DNA of 64,000 nucleotides from Tenggerimyces flavus (GTDB taxonomy: Bacteria > Actinomycetota > Actinomycetes > Propionibacteriales > Actinopolymorphaceae), in contig NZ_JAFBCM010000001.1 of the NCBI RefSeq assembly GCF_016907715.1, positions 930,001 through 994,000 of the forward strand, written 5' to 3'. Positions 32,608 to 39,986 of this stretch are shown here, piece by piece. Position 1 is the first letter of the stretch, and every line of letters starts with the position of its first letter. Position numbers and translations under genes: made by a program. Below the pieces are notes generated by a model. That model worked only from the letters and a program-made list of their open reading frames with translations, was not told where the DNA came from and made no database searches.

Positions 32608-33510
32608 ATGAAACCGACAAACGACCTGCTCACCCGAGCCGGCGACTTCATCTGGCTGACGGCTCGCGTCCTGGAGCAACGACGGTACGAACACCTCTTC
32701 CACCATGGCTCGGCCGATGCGGTGCTCACCGCCCTGTCGGCGTACGAGAACCCCGACGGCGGCTACGCGTACGCGCTCGAGCCCGACAACCGCGGCCCGA
32801 ACAGCCAGCCGAACGCGACGATCTCGGCGGTCTCGATCTTCGAAGAGGTCAAGGCGATCGACTCCGATCGGGCGCAGGCCGCGGTCGACTACTTCGGCTC
32901 CGTCGTGCTGCCCGACGGGAGCACTCCGGTGCTGGTGCCGGGGTACGAGGGATTCCCGAACGCCCCGTGGATCGTGCCCGATCCGGACGGCGGCGGCTCG
33001 GTGCTGCTGACCGCGCTGATGATGGCCACGCTGTATCGCAGTGGGGTCGAGCGTCCGTGGATGGCGAAGTCGACCGACTACCTCTGGACGGCGATCGAGT
33101 CGATCGAGAAGACCCATCCGTACGAGGCGATCTTCGCGATGCTGTTCCTCGACCAGGTCCCCGACCGCGACCGCGCCGCGCGTGCGGCCGAACGGCTGGG
33201 CCGGATCGTGCGGGACGGCAACCTGGTCGTGCTCGACCACAGCGATCCCTCGAAGTACGAGGTCGAAGGGTATGCGCCGGGCGAGGTCTTCTACGCCCAT
33301 GACTACGCGCCGCGCCCGACGAGCCTGGCCCGCGCGTGGTTCTCCGACACGGAGCTGGCCGAGGCGCTCGACCACCTGGAGGCCGAGCAGGGCGAGGACG
33401 GCGGCTGGCCGGTCACGATGAAGCAGTGGGCTCCGGGCACGCACCTGGAGTGGCGGCCGATTCAGACGCTCGGTGTGCTGGCGACCCTGAAGGCGTACGA
33501 GCGCGTCTAG
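32608..33510 (+). CDS. Alpha/alpha-toroid (prenyltransferase/squalene cyclase-like) protein
   Basis: 300 residues. Repeated helical units with DGG-type turns (ENPDGGYAYALEPD, GEDGGWPVTMKQWAPGTHLEWR) are typical of the alpha/alpha-6 toroid shared by terpene cyclases and prenyltransferase beta subunits. The terpene cyclase DxDD or QW motif set is not complete, so catalysis is doubtful. No signal peptide. I do not recognise a defined function. Start ATG 32608. Its stop shares CTAG with the convergent ABC-2 permease gene. Confidence 0.75.
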   Translation: MKPTNDLLTRAGDFIWLTARVLEQRRYEHLFHHGSADAVLTALSAYENPDGGYAYALEPDNRGPNSQPNATISAVSIFEEVKAIDSDRAQAAVDYFGSVVLPDGSTPVLVPGYEGFPNAPWIVPDPDGGGSVLLTALMMATLYRSGVERPWMAKSTDYLWTAIESIEKTHPYEAIFAMLFLDQVPDRDRAARAAERLGRIVRDGNLVVLDHSDPSKYEVEGYAPGEVFYAHDYAPRPTSLARAWFSDTELAEALDHLEAEQGEDGGWPVTMKQWAPGTHLEWRPIQTLGVLATLKAYERV

Positions 33511-34292
33511 GTGAGCTCGAGCGAACCCGTCTGGCGGGTAAGCCGTTCGACCCGGTTGAACGCGAGCATCCCGAGGACGGGAAGGAGAATCGCGAACCCC
33601 GCAAGGGGAATCAGCTCCCGCCACAATGAGGTGATGCTCGCGCCCTTCGTGGACGCATCGACCAGGGCTTGGACACCGTACGCGAACGGGAAGAACCGCG
33701 CGGGGATGCGGATCCAGTCCGGCATCAACGCGATCGGGTACATCGTCCCGGCCAGCAACATGATCGGCCCGAACAGCAGGTTCGAGATTTGGTTGGCATC
33801 CCGGATCGCCACACCGATCGCGCCGACGACCATGCTGAAGCCCCACATGCAGGCGCCGAACAGCGCGAACGTCACCAACAGTGCGGGAAGATTCACCTTC
33901 ACCGTAAGGCCAAACGCCATCGCGCCCACCGCAATAGTGATCGCCGCGGTGGCGAGGGCCTCGACGATCGCGAACAGCTGGAATCCGCCGAGCCACGCGT
34001 AGCGCGAGCACGGCGCCAGGAACAGGTTGCCGAGCGAGCCGCGCCTGCGCTCGCCGTCGAGGACCTCGCCCGCGTTGTAGAGCATCGCGAACAGCAGCGC
34101 CATGCATGCGCCGCCGATGATCGCGTAGTCACGCAGCTGCTCGTTGTCCCGGTAGATGAGCCCGATCAGCAGCAGGTTGAAGACCGGGTACATCATCCAC
34201 ACCAACGCGTAGAAGAACGGCCCGGCGAAGAGGATCTTCGTCCGTCCGACCACGAACGCGGTCGAGAACACGATCCGAACCACAGCCGACAT
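33507..34292 (-). CDS. ABC-2 type transporter permease
   Basis: 261 residues, six predicted transmembrane segments. Family features: GEVLDGERRRGSLGNLFLAPCSR (the ABC-2 coupling helix segment) and NLLFGPIMLLAGTMYPIALMPDWI. It pairs with the next permease (34303-35112) and the ATPase (35109-35927) to make an ABC-2 transporter, usually a drug, lipid or polysaccharide exporter. Last gene of the sigma-factor operon. Start ATG 34292, 10 bases after the previous stop. Confidence 0.9.
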   Translation of the reverse strand: MSAVVRIVFSTAFVVGRTKILFAGPFFYALVWMMYPVFNLLLIGLIYRDNEQLRDYAIIGGACMALLFAMLYNAGEVLDGERRRGSLGNLFLAPCSRYAWLGGFQLFAIVEALATAAITIAVGAMAFGLTVKVNLPALLVTFALFGACMWGFSMVVGAIGVAIRDANQISNLLFGPIMLLAGTMYPIALMPDWIRIPARFFPFAYGVQALVDASTKGASITSLWRELIPLAGFAILLPVLGMLAFNRVERLTRQTGSLELT

Positions 34293-34302
34293 CAGTCAAC
34301 TC

Positions 34303-35112
34303 CTACAGCAGATCGAGGGTCGCGCGACGGCGGAGCGCGCTGTCCATCCGGCGCAGCGACCAGACGCCGATCGCGAGGAAGACCGCGCTGCTCGCCACGG
34401 TCGCGAGCAGGGCGCCACTCACCTCGGCCAACGACGCACCAGAGAGCGTCGTGGCGCGCAACGCCTCCACCGCGTGGGAAATCGGGATCACGTCGGTCAG
34501 CGGCTGCACCCAGTCCGGCAGGACCGAACGCGGAACGAAGAAGCCCGCCAGCAGATAGATCGGGCCCTGCAGGAAGTTGGACAGCGCGTTCGAGTGCCGG
34601 GACAGGATGAACAGCCCGCTGAAGCCCAGGCCGATGCACAACGTGCCGACGTACAGCGCGAGGAGGCAGACCAGAGCGGCGAGCGGGTCGGCGATGTCGA
34701 AGCGCCCACCCAGCACGGTCCCGAACAGCACCGTCAGCAGCAGACCGGAGACGTCGTAGCAGATGCAGCCGAGCCCGTACCCGAGGATGACCGGCCCGAT
34801 CCGCGTCGGCGCGGCGACGACGGCGGGCAGCGTGCCCTCATAGATCTCCGACTGCAGCGCGTTGCCGGCGCCCCAGACCGTCGCGTTCCACGCCATCGTC
34901 GCGATGACGCCGACCACGAGGAAGCCGATCACGTCCTCGCCCGGAACGGCGGTCTGCCCCGACACCTGGTACGCCAGCACGAACCCGAGCAGCAGCAAGA
35001 CGCCGAACAGCGGCATCCGGAGCATCATCACCGGGTTCGACGCGAACCGGAGCAGCAGCACCCGCGCGGTCGCGAACATCAGCAGCCAGTCCGCGCGGAG
35101 CGTGCCGGTCAC
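34303..35112 (-). CDS. ABC-2 type transporter permease
   Basis: 269 residues, six transmembrane segments. ALQSEIYEGTLPAVVAAPTR is the coupling segment and NFLQGPIYLLAGFFVPRSVLPDWVQPL matches the second conserved region, as in the sister permease. GTG 35112 overlaps the ATPase stop by 4 bp (GTGA). The two permeases are homologous but clearly diverged, so the transporter is probably a heterodimer. Confidence 0.9.
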   Translation of the reverse strand: MTGTLRADWLLMFATARVLLLRFASNPVMMLRMPLFGVLLLLGFVLAYQVSGQTAVPGEDVIGFLVVGVIATMAWNATVWGAGNALQSEIYEGTLPAVVAAPTRIGPVILGYGLGCICYDVSGLLLTVLFGTVLGGRFDIADPLAALVCLLALYVGTLCIGLGFSGLFILSRHSNALSNFLQGPIYLLAGFFVPRSVLPDWVQPLTDVIPISHAVEALRATTLSGASLAEVSGALLATVASSAVFLAIGVWSLRRMDSALRRRATLDLL

Positions 35113-35927
35113 GGCTGCTCCTCTTCGTACTCCCGGCCGGTCGCGGCGAGGAAGACCTCCTCCAGCGAGGCCACGTCCGCGGCGGCCTTGAGCTCCGCCG
35201 GCGTGCCACGCGCGACGATCAGGCCGCGGTCGACGATCGCGAGGTCGTGGCAGAGCACGTCCGCTTCGTTCATGTCGTGCGTGGTGAGCAGAACGGTGTG
35301 CTCGGGGACGAGGCTCGCGATCAGCTGGCGGACCTCGATCGCCGCCTTCGGGTCCAGGCCGATCGTCGGCTCGTCGAGGATCGCGACCTGCGGCTCGTGC
35401 AGCAACGTCTTCGCGATGTGCAGGCGCTGCTTCATGCCGCGCGAGTAGCTCTCGACGCGTTCGTCGGCGCGGGTGGTGAGGTCCATCCGTTCCAGCAGCT
35501 CGATGGACCGGCGTTCGATCCTCTCCTTGGTCAGGCCGTAGAGCCGACCGAAGTAGCGGAGATTCTCCTTACCAGACAGCTGGTTGTAGAGCCCCTTGTC
35601 GCCGCCGAACAGAACCCCGAGCCGGCGGCGTACGGCGGACTCGTCGGTGACGACGTCGAAGCCGTCGATCGTGGCGGTCCCGGCCGTGGGGATGAGCAGC
35701 GTGGAGAGCATCTTGATCGTCGTGGTCTTGCCGGCGCCGTTCGGGCCGAGGATGCCGAAGATCGTGCCGCGCGGAACGGCGAAGCTGATGCCGCGGACGG
35801 CCTCCACGACCTCGCCCGAGCGGAACCAGCCCTTGCGCTTGCGGAACGTACGGCGCAGGTCGTCGGCGACGATGGCGTTCCCGGCGGCCACCTCGCTGTC
35901 GGCGGACACCGGTGCGAGATTCGTCAT
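35109..35927 (-). CDS. ABC transporter ATP-binding protein
   Basis: 272 residues from ATG 35927, which overlaps the 74-residue protein's stop by 4 bp (ATGA). Walker A GPNGAGKTTT, a Q-loop region (LFGGDKGLYNQLSGKENL), signature YSRGMKQRLHIAKTL and Walker B VAILDEPTIGLDP, with the H-loop in LLTTHDMNEAD. Belongs to the ABC-2-associated (DrrA/CcmA-like) group. An N-terminal RKRKGWFRSGEVVEAVRG stretch is typical of this subgroup. Works with the two downstream permeases. Confidence 0.93.
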   Translation of the reverse strand: MTNLAPVSADSEVAAGNAIVADDLRRTFRKRKGWFRSGEVVEAVRGISFAVPRGTIFGILGPNGAGKTTTIKMLSTLLIPTAGTATIDGFDVVTDESAVRRRLGVLFGGDKGLYNQLSGKENLRYFGRLYGLTKERIERRSIELLERMDLTTRADERVESYSRGMKQRLHIAKTLLHEPQVAILDEPTIGLDPKAAIEVRQLIASLVPEHTVLLTTHDMNEADVLCHDLAIVDRGLIVARGTPAELKAAADVASLEEVFLAATGREYEEEQP

Positions 35928-36148
35928 GCGGCCCATCCCGCCGCCGCAAGGACAGGTTGACGGTGCGCCTGGACGAAGACGTTCGCCAGCTGCATGCCCT
36001 GCGTGCGCCACCACTGAGGCGGGAGGCCGGACGGCTGGTCGTGTCGCGCCACGATCGAACGGCGCATGCTCTCGACGTCGTCGGCGGCGAGTCGAACGGA
36101 CGTCGCCCAGCCGGCCAGCACGGTGTCGAGGCTGCTCGGTTCGGTCAT
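35924..36148 (-). CDS. Small protein (74 aa) between sigma factor and ABC ATPase
   Basis: 74 residues: MTEPSSLDTVLAGWATS at the start and PPQWWRTQGMQLANVFVQ near the end. Linked by 4-bp ATGA overlaps to the sigma factor before it and the ATPase after it. No transmembrane helix and no ZAS zinc motif, so it is not a typical anti-sigma factor. It may modulate the sigma factor or the transporter; function unknown. The tight coupling is the main evidence that it is real. Confidence 0.72.
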   Translation of the reverse strand: MTEPSSLDTVLAGWATSVRLAADDVESMRRSIVARHDQPSGLPPQWWRTQGMQLANVFVQAHRQPVLAAAGWAA

Positions 36149-36705
36149 CGTCGTGCCTCCTCGAGGCTTGGTTCGGACAGTCCCAGGTCGCGGGCGAGTG
36201 CCCGGCGGGCCTGGTTGAGCTTGTAGCGGACCGTTCCGGCCGGCAGCTCCAGCGCGGCGCCGATCTGGGCGCTGGTGAGCTCGCTGACCGCGTGCATGGC
36301 GAGGATCACCCGCAGGTCTTCGGGCAGGTTGCGTACGGCCGCGCCGACCTCGGAGACCAGCTCGGCGGTCGCCGCCCGTGCGTCCGGCTGGTCGGTCTCC
36401 GGGATCGTCGTACGGACGACGTCCTGCAGTGCCTCCCCCATCGCCTCGCGCGTCGCCCGGGCTCGGTACGTGTCGGTGACGAGGTTGCGAGCGACCGCGA
36501 AGATCCATGCCCGTTGGCGTTCCGGGGCGATCGCACGGACCTCGTCGAGCCGCCGCCACACCCGCAGGAACGTCTCCTGGAGCAGGTCGCGCGCGGTGTC
36601 GGGATCGCTCACCCGCCCGAGCAGGTACCCGTAGACGCCCGGCCGGTGCGCGTCGAAGATCTCGGTGAACGCGCGCTCCGCGGCGTCGGGATCAGGCATC
36701 ACCAT
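36145..36705 (-). CDS. RNA polymerase ECF-type sigma factor
   Basis: 186 residues. Region 2 (YLLGRVSDPDTARDLLQETFLRVWRRLDEV) and region 4 (NLPEDLRVILAMHAVSELTSAQIGAALELPAGTVRYKLNQARRALA, split in parts) are clear, with no region 3: an ECF sigma factor. Start ATG 36705; ATG 36699 is also possible. It overlaps the upstream gene by 14 bases and the next by 4, so its level is coupled with the beta-repeat protein and the ABC transporter. No membrane anti-sigma factor lies next to it. Confidence 0.92.
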   Translation of the reverse strand: MVMPDPDAAERAFTEIFDAHRPGVYGYLLGRVSDPDTARDLLQETFLRVWRRLDEVRAIAPERQRAWIFAVARNLVTDTYRARATREAMGEALQDVVRTTIPETDQPDARAATAELVSEVGAAVRNLPEDLRVILAMHAVSELTSAQIGAALELPAGTVRYKLNQARRALARDLGLSEPSLEEARR

Positions 36706-37621
36706 GGCCGTCGGACACGACGAGGTTGCCGTACTTCTCGGTCGTCAGCACCTGGAGCGCGGAGACGAGCTCCTTGCGCGCGCTCAGGTTGCCGACCAAC
36801 GTGACCTCGGAGACCTTCGCGCGCAGCAGTTCGGCGGGTACGTCGCTCTCGATCCGGAAGTCGCCGACCAGCGCGAGCGCGACCGGACCGTCCAGCGCGT
36901 CGAAGAACCCGCGCCCGAACGTCTCCTGACCCTTGAAGAACCGTGGCTCGCCGCCGTACCAGATGAGCTCGCCGCCACCGACCAGCCGCGGCGCCAGCAC
37001 GCCCTCGCTCGACCGTGGGGCGAGGAGTCTGCCGCCCCAGAAGACCTCCTGGAAACCGACCCTCGGCGCCAGGCTGGTGATGATGACGTCGCCGGCGAGC
37101 ATGAGCACGTCGCCCGCATTGCCGCCATGGTTCGCGAGGGTCTCGCCGCTGATCCGGATCTCGCCGCTCAGCGGCTGGAACCGTTGCCCCTGGACGTAGG
37201 TGTAGTAGTTCACCGCGCCGGTGACCCTGGTCAGACCGATGCCGAGGGCCGTCTCGCTGCCGCGCGGGGCGAGCACGGCGCCGATGACGACGACCTCGCG
37301 ATAGCCCACACGTTCGACCGGCGTCGTGACGACCAGGCCGCCGATGACCACAAGGACCTCGTTGTCGCCACCCGGGTCGGCCAACGCCTCGCCGGACAGC
37401 GTGAACATGCCGGTGTGGAAGCGGACATGCGCGTCGCGTGGCACCGGGATCACGTGGGCGACGTCGACCAGCCGGACGCGGGTGAGCAGCTCACCCCCGT
37501 CGGCCGGAACCACGAGGGTGGCGACGCCCCGGATCTCCTCCAGGCGCGCCAGGTTCTCCGGCGTCGCTTGGGAGAGATCGAGGAACGCGACGTTCTCGAT
37601 CACTGTCGGTTGGTCGTTCAT
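36692..37621 (-). CDS. Beta-repeat protein of unknown function, first gene of sigma-ABC operon
   Basis: 309 residues from ATG 37621 with GAGGAGG 9 bases upstream. No signal peptide or transmembrane helix. Two obvious internal repeats with a period of 82 residues: LSGEALADPGGDNEVLVVIGG..RVGYREVVVIGAVLAPRGSE (residues 75-123) and ISGETLANHGGNAGDVLMLAGD..RVGFQEVFWGGRLLAPRSSE (157-205); a weaker third unit follows. The strand-rich pattern suggests a beta-solenoid, as in bactofilins, but no known family is recognised. Its 3' end overlaps the sigma factor gene, so it may sense or scaffold for that system. Confidence 0.8.
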   Translation of the reverse strand: MNDQPTVIENVAFLDLSQATPENLARLEEIRGVATLVVPADGGELLTRVRLVDVAHVIPVPRDAHVRFHTGMFTLSGEALADPGGDNEVLVVIGGLVVTTPVERVGYREVVVIGAVLAPRGSETALGIGLTRVTGAVNYYTYVQGQRFQPLSGEIRISGETLANHGGNAGDVLMLAGDVIITSLAPRVGFQEVFWGGRLLAPRSSEGVLAPRLVGGGELIWYGGEPRFFKGQETFGRGFFDALDGPVALALVGDFRIESDVPAELLRAKVSEVTLVGNLSARKELVSALQVLTTEKYGNLVVSDGHGDA

Positions 37622-37689
37622 GCCCTTTGTCCTCCTCGAACCCCAGGGTCGCATCAAGGAAGACGGACGAGCGCGCGAAGTGTTGGGAG

Positions 37690-38637
37690 CTATCTTCCGA
37701 AGGTGTCGAACGCCGCCGCCGCGGCACCGATCACGCCCACCTGCTCGCCGAGCTCGGACAGCACCACCCTGCACCGTTCCCCGGCGAACTCGAACGCGAG
37801 CTCGTCGACGCGCTCGCGGACCGGCAGCAGCAGCTGGTCGTCCGACCGCGTCACGCCGCCGCCGAGGACGAGCACGTCCGCCTCGAACAGGTTGCTCAGG
37901 CTCGCGACTCCGGTGCCGAGGATCTCGGTCGTGTCGTCCCACAACGCGGCGGCCATCGGGTCTCCGTCGGCGGCGGCGCGCGAGACGTCCGCGGCGGTGA
38001 GGGTCGCGACCCGGGCGAGCGCGGAGTCCGCGCCGTCGTCGAGCAGCTCGCGCGCTCGCGCGGCGATCGACGTCCCCGAGCAGTAGGCCTCGATGCAGCC
38101 GCGCGACCCGCACGGACAGGGCCTGCCGTCGTGGACGACGACCATATGTCCGATCTCGCCGCCGTTGCCGCTGCGTCCGCGCATCAGCCGGCCGTCGAGG
38201 ATCGCGCCGCCGCCGACACCGGTCGAGACCGTCAGGTAGACCATCGACCGCGCGCCGCGGCCCGCGCCGTGCCGGTACTCGCCGATCGCCGCGGCGACGC
38301 CGTCGTTCTCCAGCCGAGCCGGCACGCCGTACGCCTGCTCGGCCCGCTCGGCGACCGCGATCTCGTCCCAGCCGGGCAGGTTGGGCGGGCCCTGGACGAG
38401 GCCTCGTTCGGTGTCGAGCGGTCCGCCGCAGCCGATGCCGACCGCGTGGAGTCCGCCGGAACCGGCCGCCGCGAGCGCTTCGTGTCCGAGCGCGAACAGT
38501 CTGTCGAGCATGTCGTCCGGCCCGCGTTCGGCAAGCGAACGGCGTTGCAGGAACGAGCACACACGACCGTCTTCGGCCACCACTCCCGCCGCGAGCTTCG
38601 TACCACCGATGTCCAATGCCAGCACGCGTTTGTGCAC
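37690..38637 (-). CDS. ROK family sugar kinase/glucokinase-like protein
   Basis: 315 residues from GTG 38637 (GAGGTGA 7 bases upstream). Phosphate-1 motif LALDIGGTKLAAG at the N-terminus, ROK signature around GEIGHMVVVHDGRPCPCGSRGCIEAYCSG with the zinc-binding C-x-C-G-x-x-G-C cluster, and catalytic ENDGVAAAIGEY. No N-terminal DNA-binding domain, so it is the kinase type rather than a regulator. It probably phosphorylates glucose, mannose or an amino sugar. Separate from the next operon by 68 bases. Confidence 0.9.
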   Translation of the reverse strand: MHKRVLALDIGGTKLAAGVVAEDGRVCSFLQRRSLAERGPDDMLDRLFALGHEALAAAGSGGLHAVGIGCGGPLDTERGLVQGPPNLPGWDEIAVAERAEQAYGVPARLENDGVAAAIGEYRHGAGRGARSMVYLTVSTGVGGGAILDGRLMRGRSGNGGEIGHMVVVHDGRPCPCGSRGCIEAYCSGTSIAARARELLDDGADSALARVATLTAADVSRAAADGDPMAAALWDDTTEILGTGVASLSNLFEADVLVLGGGVTRSDDQLLLPVRERVDELAFEFAGERCRVVLSELGEQVGVIGAAAAAFDTFGR

Positions 38638-38756
38638 CCAGGTCACCTCACACGCGATGGATGTGGAATCGATCCCAGACACTCGGTGACGGTAATCCCC
38701 CGCCGGGGCAGGGTCAAGGCGGGAATAGCCGGCTCGGAGGCCGAGTTAGGATCAAT

Positions 38757-38772
38757 ATATGCAAACGCATAG
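38757..38772 (+). promoter_or_regulatory. Candidate MarR operator, TATGC-N4-GCATA
   Basis: TATGCAAACGCATA at 38758-38771 lies in an AT-rich patch 28 bases before the ATG of the flavin monooxygenase gene. A MarR gene is second in that operon, so autoregulation through this dyad is plausible. Confidence 0.55.
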
Positions 38773-38798
38773 ACCATGAGGGACGAAGGAGACAGGTC

Positions 38799-39986
38799 AT
38801 GCAGTTCGGGGTGTTCTCGGTCAGTGACATCACGCGAGACCCCGTGTCGGGACAGACGCCGAGCGAGGCGGAGCGCATCGACGCGGTCGTACGGATCGCC
38901 CAGAAGGCCGAGGAGGTCGGGCTGGACGTGTTCGCGATCGGCGAGCACCACAACCCGCCGTTCTTCTCGTCCTCCCCCACCACCTTGCTGGCGCACATCG
39001 CGGCGACCACCGAGCGCCTGATCGTCTCGACGGCGACGACGTTGATCACGACGAACGACCCGGTGCGCATCGCGGAGGAGTACGCGATGCTCCAGCACCT
39101 GTCCAAGGGCCGCGTCGACCTGATGATGGGCCGCGGCAACACCGCGCCGGTCTATCCCTGGTTCGGCCAGGACATCCGGCAGGGCCTGCCGCTGGCGCTG
39201 GAGAACTACAACCTGCTGCACCGGCTATGGCGTGAGGACGTGATCGACTGGGAGGGCACGTTCCGTACGGCACTGCAGGGCTTCACCTCGGTGCCGCGCC
39301 CGCTCGACGACGTCCCGCCGTTCGTCTGGCACGGCTCGATCCGGACGCCCGAGATCGCCGAGCAGGCCGCGTACTACGGCGATGGCTTCTTCGCCAACCA
39401 CATCTTCTGGCCGAAGGAGCACTTCATGCGGTTGGTGAACTTCTACCGGCAGCGCTACGCGCACTACGGCCACGGCACCGAGAAGCAGGCGATCGTCGGC
39501 CTCGGCGGGCACATCTACCTCGCGCGCAACTCCCAGGACGCGATCAAGGAGTTCCGGCCGTACTTCAACGAGGCGCCGGTGTACGGGAACGGGCCCTCGC
39601 TCGAGGACTTCGTGGAGGGCACGCCGCTGACGGTCGGCAGCCCGCAGGAGGTCATCGACAAGACCCTGACGTTCCGTGAGCACTTCGGCGACTACCAGCG
39701 GCAGCTGTTCCTCGTCGACCACGCCGGCCTGCCGGTGAAGACCGTGCTCGACCAGCTCGACCTGCTGGGCGAGGAGGTCCTGCCGACGCTGCGCAAGGAG
39801 CTGTCGGCTCGGCGCGACCCGGACGTGCCGGACGCTCCGACGCACGCGAGCCTGGTGCGCGCGAAGTACGGCGACGCCGCTCCCCGGCAGCCGCGCCCGA
39901 ACGCCAACCGCGGCGACAACGTGACCGGCGCGTCGCCGTACCAGGACACCGACCCCGCCGTTCAGGCCACGTACCCGAGGCCCTGA
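38799..39986 (+). CDS. CE1758-type FMN-dependent luciferase-like monooxygenase
   Basis: 395 residues from ATG 38799 with GAAGGAG 9 bases upstream. TIM-barrel luciferase-like fold: MQFGVFSVSDITRDP at the N-terminus, GEHHNPPFFSSSP, DLMMGRGNTAPVYPWFG, and a C-terminal variable tail. Together with the MarR gene and the FMN reductase that follow it matches the Corynebacterium CE1758/CE1759 two-component flavin monooxygenase pair. The reductase would supply FMNH2. The substrate is unknown. Its stop overlaps the MarR start by one base. Confidence 0.88.
   Translation: MQFGVFSVSDITRDPVSGQTPSEAERIDAVVRIAQKAEEVGLDVFAIGEHHNPPFFSSSPTTLLAHIAATTERLIVSTATTLITTNDPVRIAEEYAMLQHLSKGRVDLMMGRGNTAPVYPWFGQDIRQGLPLALENYNLLHRLWREDVIDWEGTFRTALQGFTSVPRPLDDVPPFVWHGSIRTPEIAEQAAYYGDGFFANHIFWPKEHFMRLVNFYRQRYAHYGHGTEKQAIVGLGGHIYLARNSQDAIKEFRPYFNEAPVYGNGPSLEDFVEGTPLTVGSPQEVIDKTLTFREHFGDYQRQLFLVDHAGLPVKTVLDQLDLLGEEVLPTLRKELSARRDPDVPDAPTHASLVRAKYGDAAPRQPRPNANRGDNVTGASPYQDTDPAVQATYPRP

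Follow-up and report, generated by a model that had tools for sequence, protein, structure and literature searches.

Relation to described sigma factor operons

The sigY-yxlCDEFG operon of Bacillus subtilis combines an extracytoplasmic function (ECF) sigma factor, a small protein and an ABC-2 type transporter. A comparable layout occurs in the actinobacterium Tenggerimyces flavus, where six genes in the 64,000-nucleotide stretch analyzed here (the window; coordinates count from its first letter) encode a beta-repeat protein (REP), an ECF sigma factor (SIG), a 74-amino-acid protein (SML), and the ATPase and two permeases of an ABC-2 type transporter. The two operons are likened by gene layout, and they differ in that the transporter of T. 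flavus is not conserved with the first three genes. To our knowledge, the B. subtilis operon has no counterpart of REP.

The first three genes (the triad) also bear comparison with smaller ECF units. In those covered by section 2 of PMC8999054, a small two-domain sigma factor is likewise encoded beside a small, apparently soluble protein, with a promoter of the AAC/CGT type; in contrast to those units, SML contains no cysteines and falls outside the searched families, and REP has no counterpart in that part of the source. The ECF286 and ECF292 groups described there likewise place an ECF gene beside a soluble protein without a classical anti-sigma domain; however, no family model, that of Asp23 included, scored above its cut-off with REP. 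The triad resembles known ECF units with a small soluble partner. By the features tested, however, SML belongs to neither the zinc-binding nor the membrane type, and the searched libraries contain no named family for REP. Among the best-ranked literature results, compared by titles and abstract openings, no publication on the triad was found.

The conserved unit is the triad REP-SIG-SML, which is smaller than the six-gene operon and occurs rarely, in scattered actinobacteria. We propose that it forms a self-contained, positively autoregulated module in which SIG would drive its own operon, SML would serve as anti-sigma factor and REP would be the output, and we give this reading a probability of roughly 0.5 from the sequence evidence. 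The module points to two protein families missing from the searched libraries and to a predicted promoter sharp enough for a direct test. If the regulon truly consists of one promoter, the module would offer an unusually clean switch of natural origin for studies of bistability and for use as an orthogonal part. The pairing of triad and exporter also hints at how, in a single lineage, a regulatory unit can gain a transporter.

Conservation of the REP-SIG-SML triad

The coordinates of all six genes and their five junctions were confirmed on the minus strand as an earlier note on this DNA, made from the sequence alone, had given them. From REP to permease 1 the genes overlap by 14, 4, 4 and 4 bp, and a 10-base gap (34293-34302) then precedes permease 2. 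The features are as follows.

37659..37687, minus strand: predicted ECF-type promoter, CCCAAC-N16-CGTCTTC; the end of its 12-base core lies 39 bases ahead of the REP start, with the upstream ROK gene ending 2 bases ahead of the promoter
36692..37621, minus strand: REP, 309-amino-acid beta-repeat protein with an 82/83-residue period, presumed cytosolic
36145..36705, minus strand: SIG, 186-amino-acid ECF sigma factor with regions 2 and 4 (Pfam PF04542, E 3.5e-14; PF08281, E 1.2e-10)
35924..36148, minus strand: SML, 74-amino-acid predicted helical protein, candidate soluble anti-sigma factor
35109..35927, minus strand: ABC transporter ATPase (Pfam ABC_tran, E 4.6e-30), behind the triad in this genome only
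34303..35112, minus strand: ABC-2 permease 1 (Pfam ABC2_membrane, E 1.5e-11), accessory
33507..34292, minus strand: ABC-2 permease 2 (Pfam ABC2_membrane, E 3.3e-19), accessory, last gene of the operon

REP was found in nine genomes, counting each genome with a full, cut or split match: three belong to the order of T. flavus (T. flavus itself, G007 and G388, which is Microlunatus parietis, loci L005/L006) and six to another class of the phylum (G838, G976, G1112, G878, G1140 and G1148). Six partial matches of family f60 were left out of this count, as was a match in G309 (E 4.6e-4) that was dismissed as chance for its short span. In all nine genomes (9/9), REP is followed by SIG and then by SML. 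The genes are tightly packed, with junctions of -23 to +1 bases between REP and SIG and of -8 to +3 bases between SIG and SML in the seven loci tabulated. The earlier note had put forward all six genes as a candidate for an undescribed system, to be checked by conservation of gene order: the order of the first three is kept, and they stand as a conserved module unmatched to any described one, whereas the transporter does not hold up as a conserved part of it.

The module was looked for at several taxonomic levels, in samples that overlap one another. REP matches were obtained in 2 of 8 genomes of the family, 3 of 391 of the order and 1 of 394 of the class, the last being T. flavus itself. In the family of M. 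parietis, 2 of 198 genomes matched and only M. parietis did so at full length; in the class of G838, 6 of 66 matched, namely G838, G976, G1112, G1140, G1148 (cut by a contig end) and G878 (split). The phylum sample gave 11 matches in 396 genomes, five of them full length or split (T. flavus, G838, G878, G976 and G1112) and six partial. No match was found in plasmids, and of two scans of genome contigs, the first yielded no relative and the second only M. parietis. Weak homologues could be missed in these counts because several of the searches scored only a few first-look candidates per genome.

Within the order, SIG follows the same distribution. At E ≤ 1e-35, the SIG alignment matched 3 of 391 genomes of the order, identical to the three that carry REP, and at E ≤ 1e-20 the T. 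flavus SIG matched 2 of 8 genomes of the family, which were again REP genomes. In trees of REP (eight sequences, with that of G1148 partial and that of G878 left out) and of SIG (nine sequences), T. flavus pairs with G007, and M. parietis falls on a long branch among the sequences of the other class. Its partner differs between the trees, being G1112 in one and G1140 in the other, and its position only hints at horizontal transfer of the module.

Two loci are irregular. REP of G878 (L057 7288-8252) is broken by an apparent frameshift and SIG, SML and the promoter look intact there, which may represent a decaying copy or an assembly error. The locus of G1148 appears to be split over two contigs.

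Transporter genes behind the triad

The last three genes of the T. flavus operon encode an ABC-2 exporter by their domains, with ABC_tran found once and ABC2_membrane twice above the Pfam cut-offs. They fall short of the NCBIfam cut-offs for DrrAB: drrA, the best model for the ATPase, scored 276.9 against 312.45 bits, and drrB scored 30.3 and 54.7 against 223.05 bits for the permeases. To compare the loci, the six T. flavus proteins were searched with phmmer (E ≤ 0.01) against open reading frames (ORFs) called by a rough GC-position rule; this rule missed REP in L055, SIG in L004 and L057, and SML in L005, which were read directly.

The T. flavus ATPase and permeases had no match behind the triad in any of the other genomes (8/8), including G007 of the same family. 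The genes that follow the triad vary instead; for example, G976 has a gene for a CHRD-domain protein there and G838 one for a methyltransferase. G007 does carry an ABC ATPase gene, upstream of the triad and on the opposite strand, which is a different arrangement. The transporter is thus behind the triad in this genome only, and the suggestion that it is a conserved output or sensor of the system was not borne out; its genes seem to be a local addition to the triad in this genome. Co-expression of exporter and triad is probable in T. flavus, since the chain of 4-base overlaps continues into it and no site of the sigma-70 type was found between 33000 and 38900, a weak test in such DNA.

These same features would suit a resistance or export operon in which the triad serves as a dedicated control unit for the transporter, the main output, on the pattern of sigY-yxlCDEFG. 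The 4-base overlaps link SML, ATPase and permease 1, and the 33000-38900 search offers the transporter genes no promoter of their own; however, the lack of a transporter behind the triad elsewhere, even within the family, makes such an operon unlikely.

A conserved, predicted promoter element upstream of REP

The sequence CCAAC-N14-TCCGTCT precedes the triad in all eight loci with enough upstream DNA (8/8), across two classes. G1140 is excluded from this count because its contig ends about 120 bases before REP, with no motif in that interval. The element places an AAC (-35) and a CGT (-10) box before the sigma operon in each of the eight loci, and the AAC to CGTC spacing is 16 in all of them. 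Such boxes, together with positive autoregulation, are typical of ECF factors according to PMC8103513. The earlier note had considered that separate promoters for the sigma factor and ABC genes would speak against a single operon; the conserved element before REP and the negative, if weak, sigma-70 search within the operon fit one transcript as far as sequence can indicate.

The distance from core to REP differs among loci: it is 32 to 60 bases in T. flavus, G007 and M. parietis, 212 to 249 bases in G1112, G976, G838 and G878, and 272 bases in G1148, where the contig ends just inside REP. Wherever enough upstream DNA is available in the other class, which is the case for five loci, an extra small ORF separates promoter and REP; the three loci of this order have no room for it. 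Its length is 67 to 69 codons where tabulated (four loci), and in G1148 it was read by eye. Its positions are as follows.

L054 896-1102: extra small ORF
L055 7319-7525: extra small ORF
L056 7637-7840: extra small ORF
L057 7077-7286: extra small ORF
L080 from 1560: extra small ORF

The exact 12-base core occurs once in each of the genomes G838, G976, G1112, G878 and G1148, always before the triad operon, and not at all in the incomplete G1140; a reversed control pattern gave 0 matches in all six. Across the window together with every fetched locus longer than 9 kb (491,842 bases searched on both strands, including some overlap), the 12-base pattern matched eight times, each time at a triad promoter, with that of M. 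parietis counted twice. The exact 13-base form is found only before the operon in G007 and M. parietis and three times in T. flavus, where the two extra copies lie inside ORFs. By eye, CCAAC and TCCGTCT stand together in no other listed 13-base match of these three genomes. A broad SIG regulon is not supported by these pattern searches.

The element might instead be an operator for another regulator, with SIG acting on unrelated targets. With TCC conserved in front of CGTCT, its 3' block extends beyond a bare CGT box, and the element is known here from sequence alone. Nevertheless, the spacing is 16 in each of the eight loci, as suits an ECF promoter; no inverted repeat of at least 8 was detected in 37622-37760; and the element accompanies the operon in two classes. 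We consider the operator explanation very improbable.

The sigma factor and its small neighbor

SIG has the composition of an ECF sigma factor: Sigma70_r2 and Sigma70_r4_2 are above their Pfam cut-offs within 186 amino acids, no other family is above its own, and sigma regions 2 and 4 are thus the only ones present. Its gene is adjoined by SML in all REP genomes (9/9). The SML sequences share the residues LD..L..W and WW, invariant in the seven aligned (7/7), and the model of the T. flavus protein predicts helices at 6-18, 22-35, 44-63 and 65-72. Set against the helical fold of a class I anti-sigma domain, SML shows these predicted helices and no match in the PDB (E ≤ 0.001), Pfam or NCBIfam.

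Both the zinc-binding and the membrane-bound kind of anti-sigma factor are a poor fit to SML. It has no cysteines in any of the nine genomes (9/9) and is therefore not of the zinc-binding (ZAS) type. Its maximum 19-residue hydropathy mean is 0.67 in T. flavus and 0.35 to 1.07 across the nine genomes, compared with 2.48 for permease 1, so that, as the earlier note had stated, no gene for a membrane anti-sigma factor lies beside SIG: the transmembrane helix of the canonical membrane-bound form is lacking in SML. The suggestion that SML regulates SIG remains plausible on adjacency in 9/9 genomes and soluble features, and we put about even odds on SML being a soluble anti-sigma factor. PADLOC returned no match for the T. 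flavus REP, SIG or SML.

The beta-repeat protein

The repeat structure of REP, described earlier as an 82-residue period, is well founded. In a column-profile self-comparison of six homologues, an offset of 83 scored 68.9 and the next, 82, scored 15.8; in 200 column shuffles, the best scores had a mean of -3.7, a standard deviation of 4.9 and a maximum of 11.5. Two repeat units are clear and a third is weak. The protein also remains unrecognised, as first described: nothing exceeded the cut-offs in Pfam or NCBIfam (T. flavus REP; three members in Pfam and six in NCBIfam), REP alone had no sequence match in the PDB, and a three-sequence profile produced only four, at E 0.65 or worse.

Structure prediction of 36692-37621 and 35924-36148, recommended in the earlier note, portrays REP as strand-rich and SML as helical, with neither model having a significant match in the structural libraries. 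The AlphaFold model of REP, from a two-sequence alignment, has a mean predicted local distance difference test score (pLDDT) of 80.9 and a predicted template modelling score (pTM) of 0.62, and consists mostly of strands with short helices. Its fold may provisionally be read as solenoid-like; the reading is provisional because the five AlphaFold models span 80.9 down to 38.6. Foldseek found no match for the model at E ≤ 0.001 against the PDB and viral models. As to a fold match with leucine-rich-repeat or other known solenoids, VIA-align gave a best Z of 4.1 over 74 residues, among weak and mixed matches that include several leucine-rich-repeat proteins. No bactofilin or polymer-forming Pfam family was listed for REP (E ≤ 1) or for three homologues (E ≤ 10), though a distant relationship may exist. 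The best 19-residue hydropathy mean is 1.55 in T. flavus and up to 1.87 in relatives, and we infer a cytosolic location.

In all three members scanned (3/3; best E 0.0011), REP has a weak C-terminal match to positions 82-117 out of 119 in the model of the ribbon-helix-helix (RHH) family RHH_8 (PF17723). PF17723 was rejected as the family of REP: P0001 scored 12.6 bits against a cut-off of 25.4, and among 28 relatives only G007 matched, below the cut-off. REP differs from RHH_8 proteins in that their ribbon-helix-helix half has no match in it. Separately, six RHH-type proteins of 130-139 codons as called, which are the partial f60 matches, align with the C-terminal segment of REP only. Scanning identified two of the six as PF17723 RHH_8; the remaining four were assigned by eye from how their sequences begin.

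L058 6598-6996: RHH-type protein
L059 8622-9038: RHH-type protein
L060 6734-7126: RHH-type protein
L061 3750-4148: RHH-type protein
L062 5855-6247: RHH-type protein
L063 5891-6310: RHH-type protein

The RHH-type gene of L060 is followed by one for an esterase of the PHB-depolymerase type (PF10503), and by eye the gene after the RHH-type one has a similar start in L061, L062 and L063.

A proposed autoregulated switch

The observed basis for a mechanism consists of the gene order, the close packing, the promoter sequence and the co-occurrence of SIG and REP in the order sample. On our proposal, SIG would transcribe from the promoter before REP and from few others, so that the operon would be its main target. 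SML, as a soluble helical anti-sigma factor, would keep SIG inactive until a signal, which is probably cytoplasmic, releases it. Were the operon indeed the main target, the effect of the switch would have to come from a product that is not the switch itself; REP, taken as cytosolic, would be the product that the switch exists to make, because it is the only constant product besides the sigma factor and putative anti-sigma factor in the eight genomes without the transporter. Scaffold, polymer and ligand binder are candidates for its role. In T. flavus, an ABC-2 exporter would have joined the 3' end of the transcript and be switched on with the triad.

Alternatively, REP rather than SML may be the main regulator of SIG, acting as a cytosolic beta-repeat sensor that sequesters or activates SIG with SML as co-factor; the output would then be a co-transcribed neighbor, here the transporter, or unseen targets. 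REP is found in the same genomes of the order as SIG and overlaps or abuts it, and soluble proteins from other families beside ECF genes are predicted to be anti-sigma factors, for example Asp23-family proteins for ECF286/ECF292 (PMC8999054, section 2). This arrangement would, however, leave no constant output in the eight other genomes, where the following genes differ, and we think it possible though rather less than probable.

Several observations weigh against the autoregulated switch with REP as its output. REP may act as a regulator and not be the output. SML has no family match in Pfam (three members) or NCBIfam (seven members), and its model, with a modest pLDDT of 69.9, gave no Foldseek match in the PDB at E ≤ 0.001. 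With up to one mismatch, the 13-base pattern matched 22 times in T. flavus against 9 for its control, an excess that is not dismissible, compared with 3 against 3 in G007 and 9 against 11 in M. parietis. Eighteen of the 22 T. flavus matches had loci, and the site was displayed in the 10 on the locus plus strand; one site in T. flavus (L032) and one in M. parietis (L018) fall outside all called ORFs. The motif comes from the very loci in which it is counted, and an exact 12-base pattern is expected less than about once per such genome by chance, so the counts exclude only other targets with the full consensus, and diverged ones may exist. On account of this weaker evidence for a single promoter, the full mechanism is given the probability stated above.

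A bolder form of the autoregulated switch would have the sigma factor act on its own operon only, in an all-or-none manner, filling the cytoplasm with REP, possibly as a polymer, and would make SML a new family of tiny anti-sigma factors within a module that moves between actinobacterial classes and takes on cargo, such as the exporter here. We regard this version as doubtful.

Genes and sites flanking the operon

A terminator-like site (33604-33590) lies on the operon strand inside the last permease gene; two such sites occur in the region, compared with 2.2 expected. A convergent gene of 300 amino acids (32608-33510, plus strand), which has no Pfam match at E ≤ 0.01, overlaps the end of that permease gene by 4 bases. 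On the other side, a ROK-family gene (37690-38682, minus strand; PF00480, E 1e-62) lies upstream of the operon, and read-through from it is possible since it runs on the same strand right up to the ECF-type promoter.

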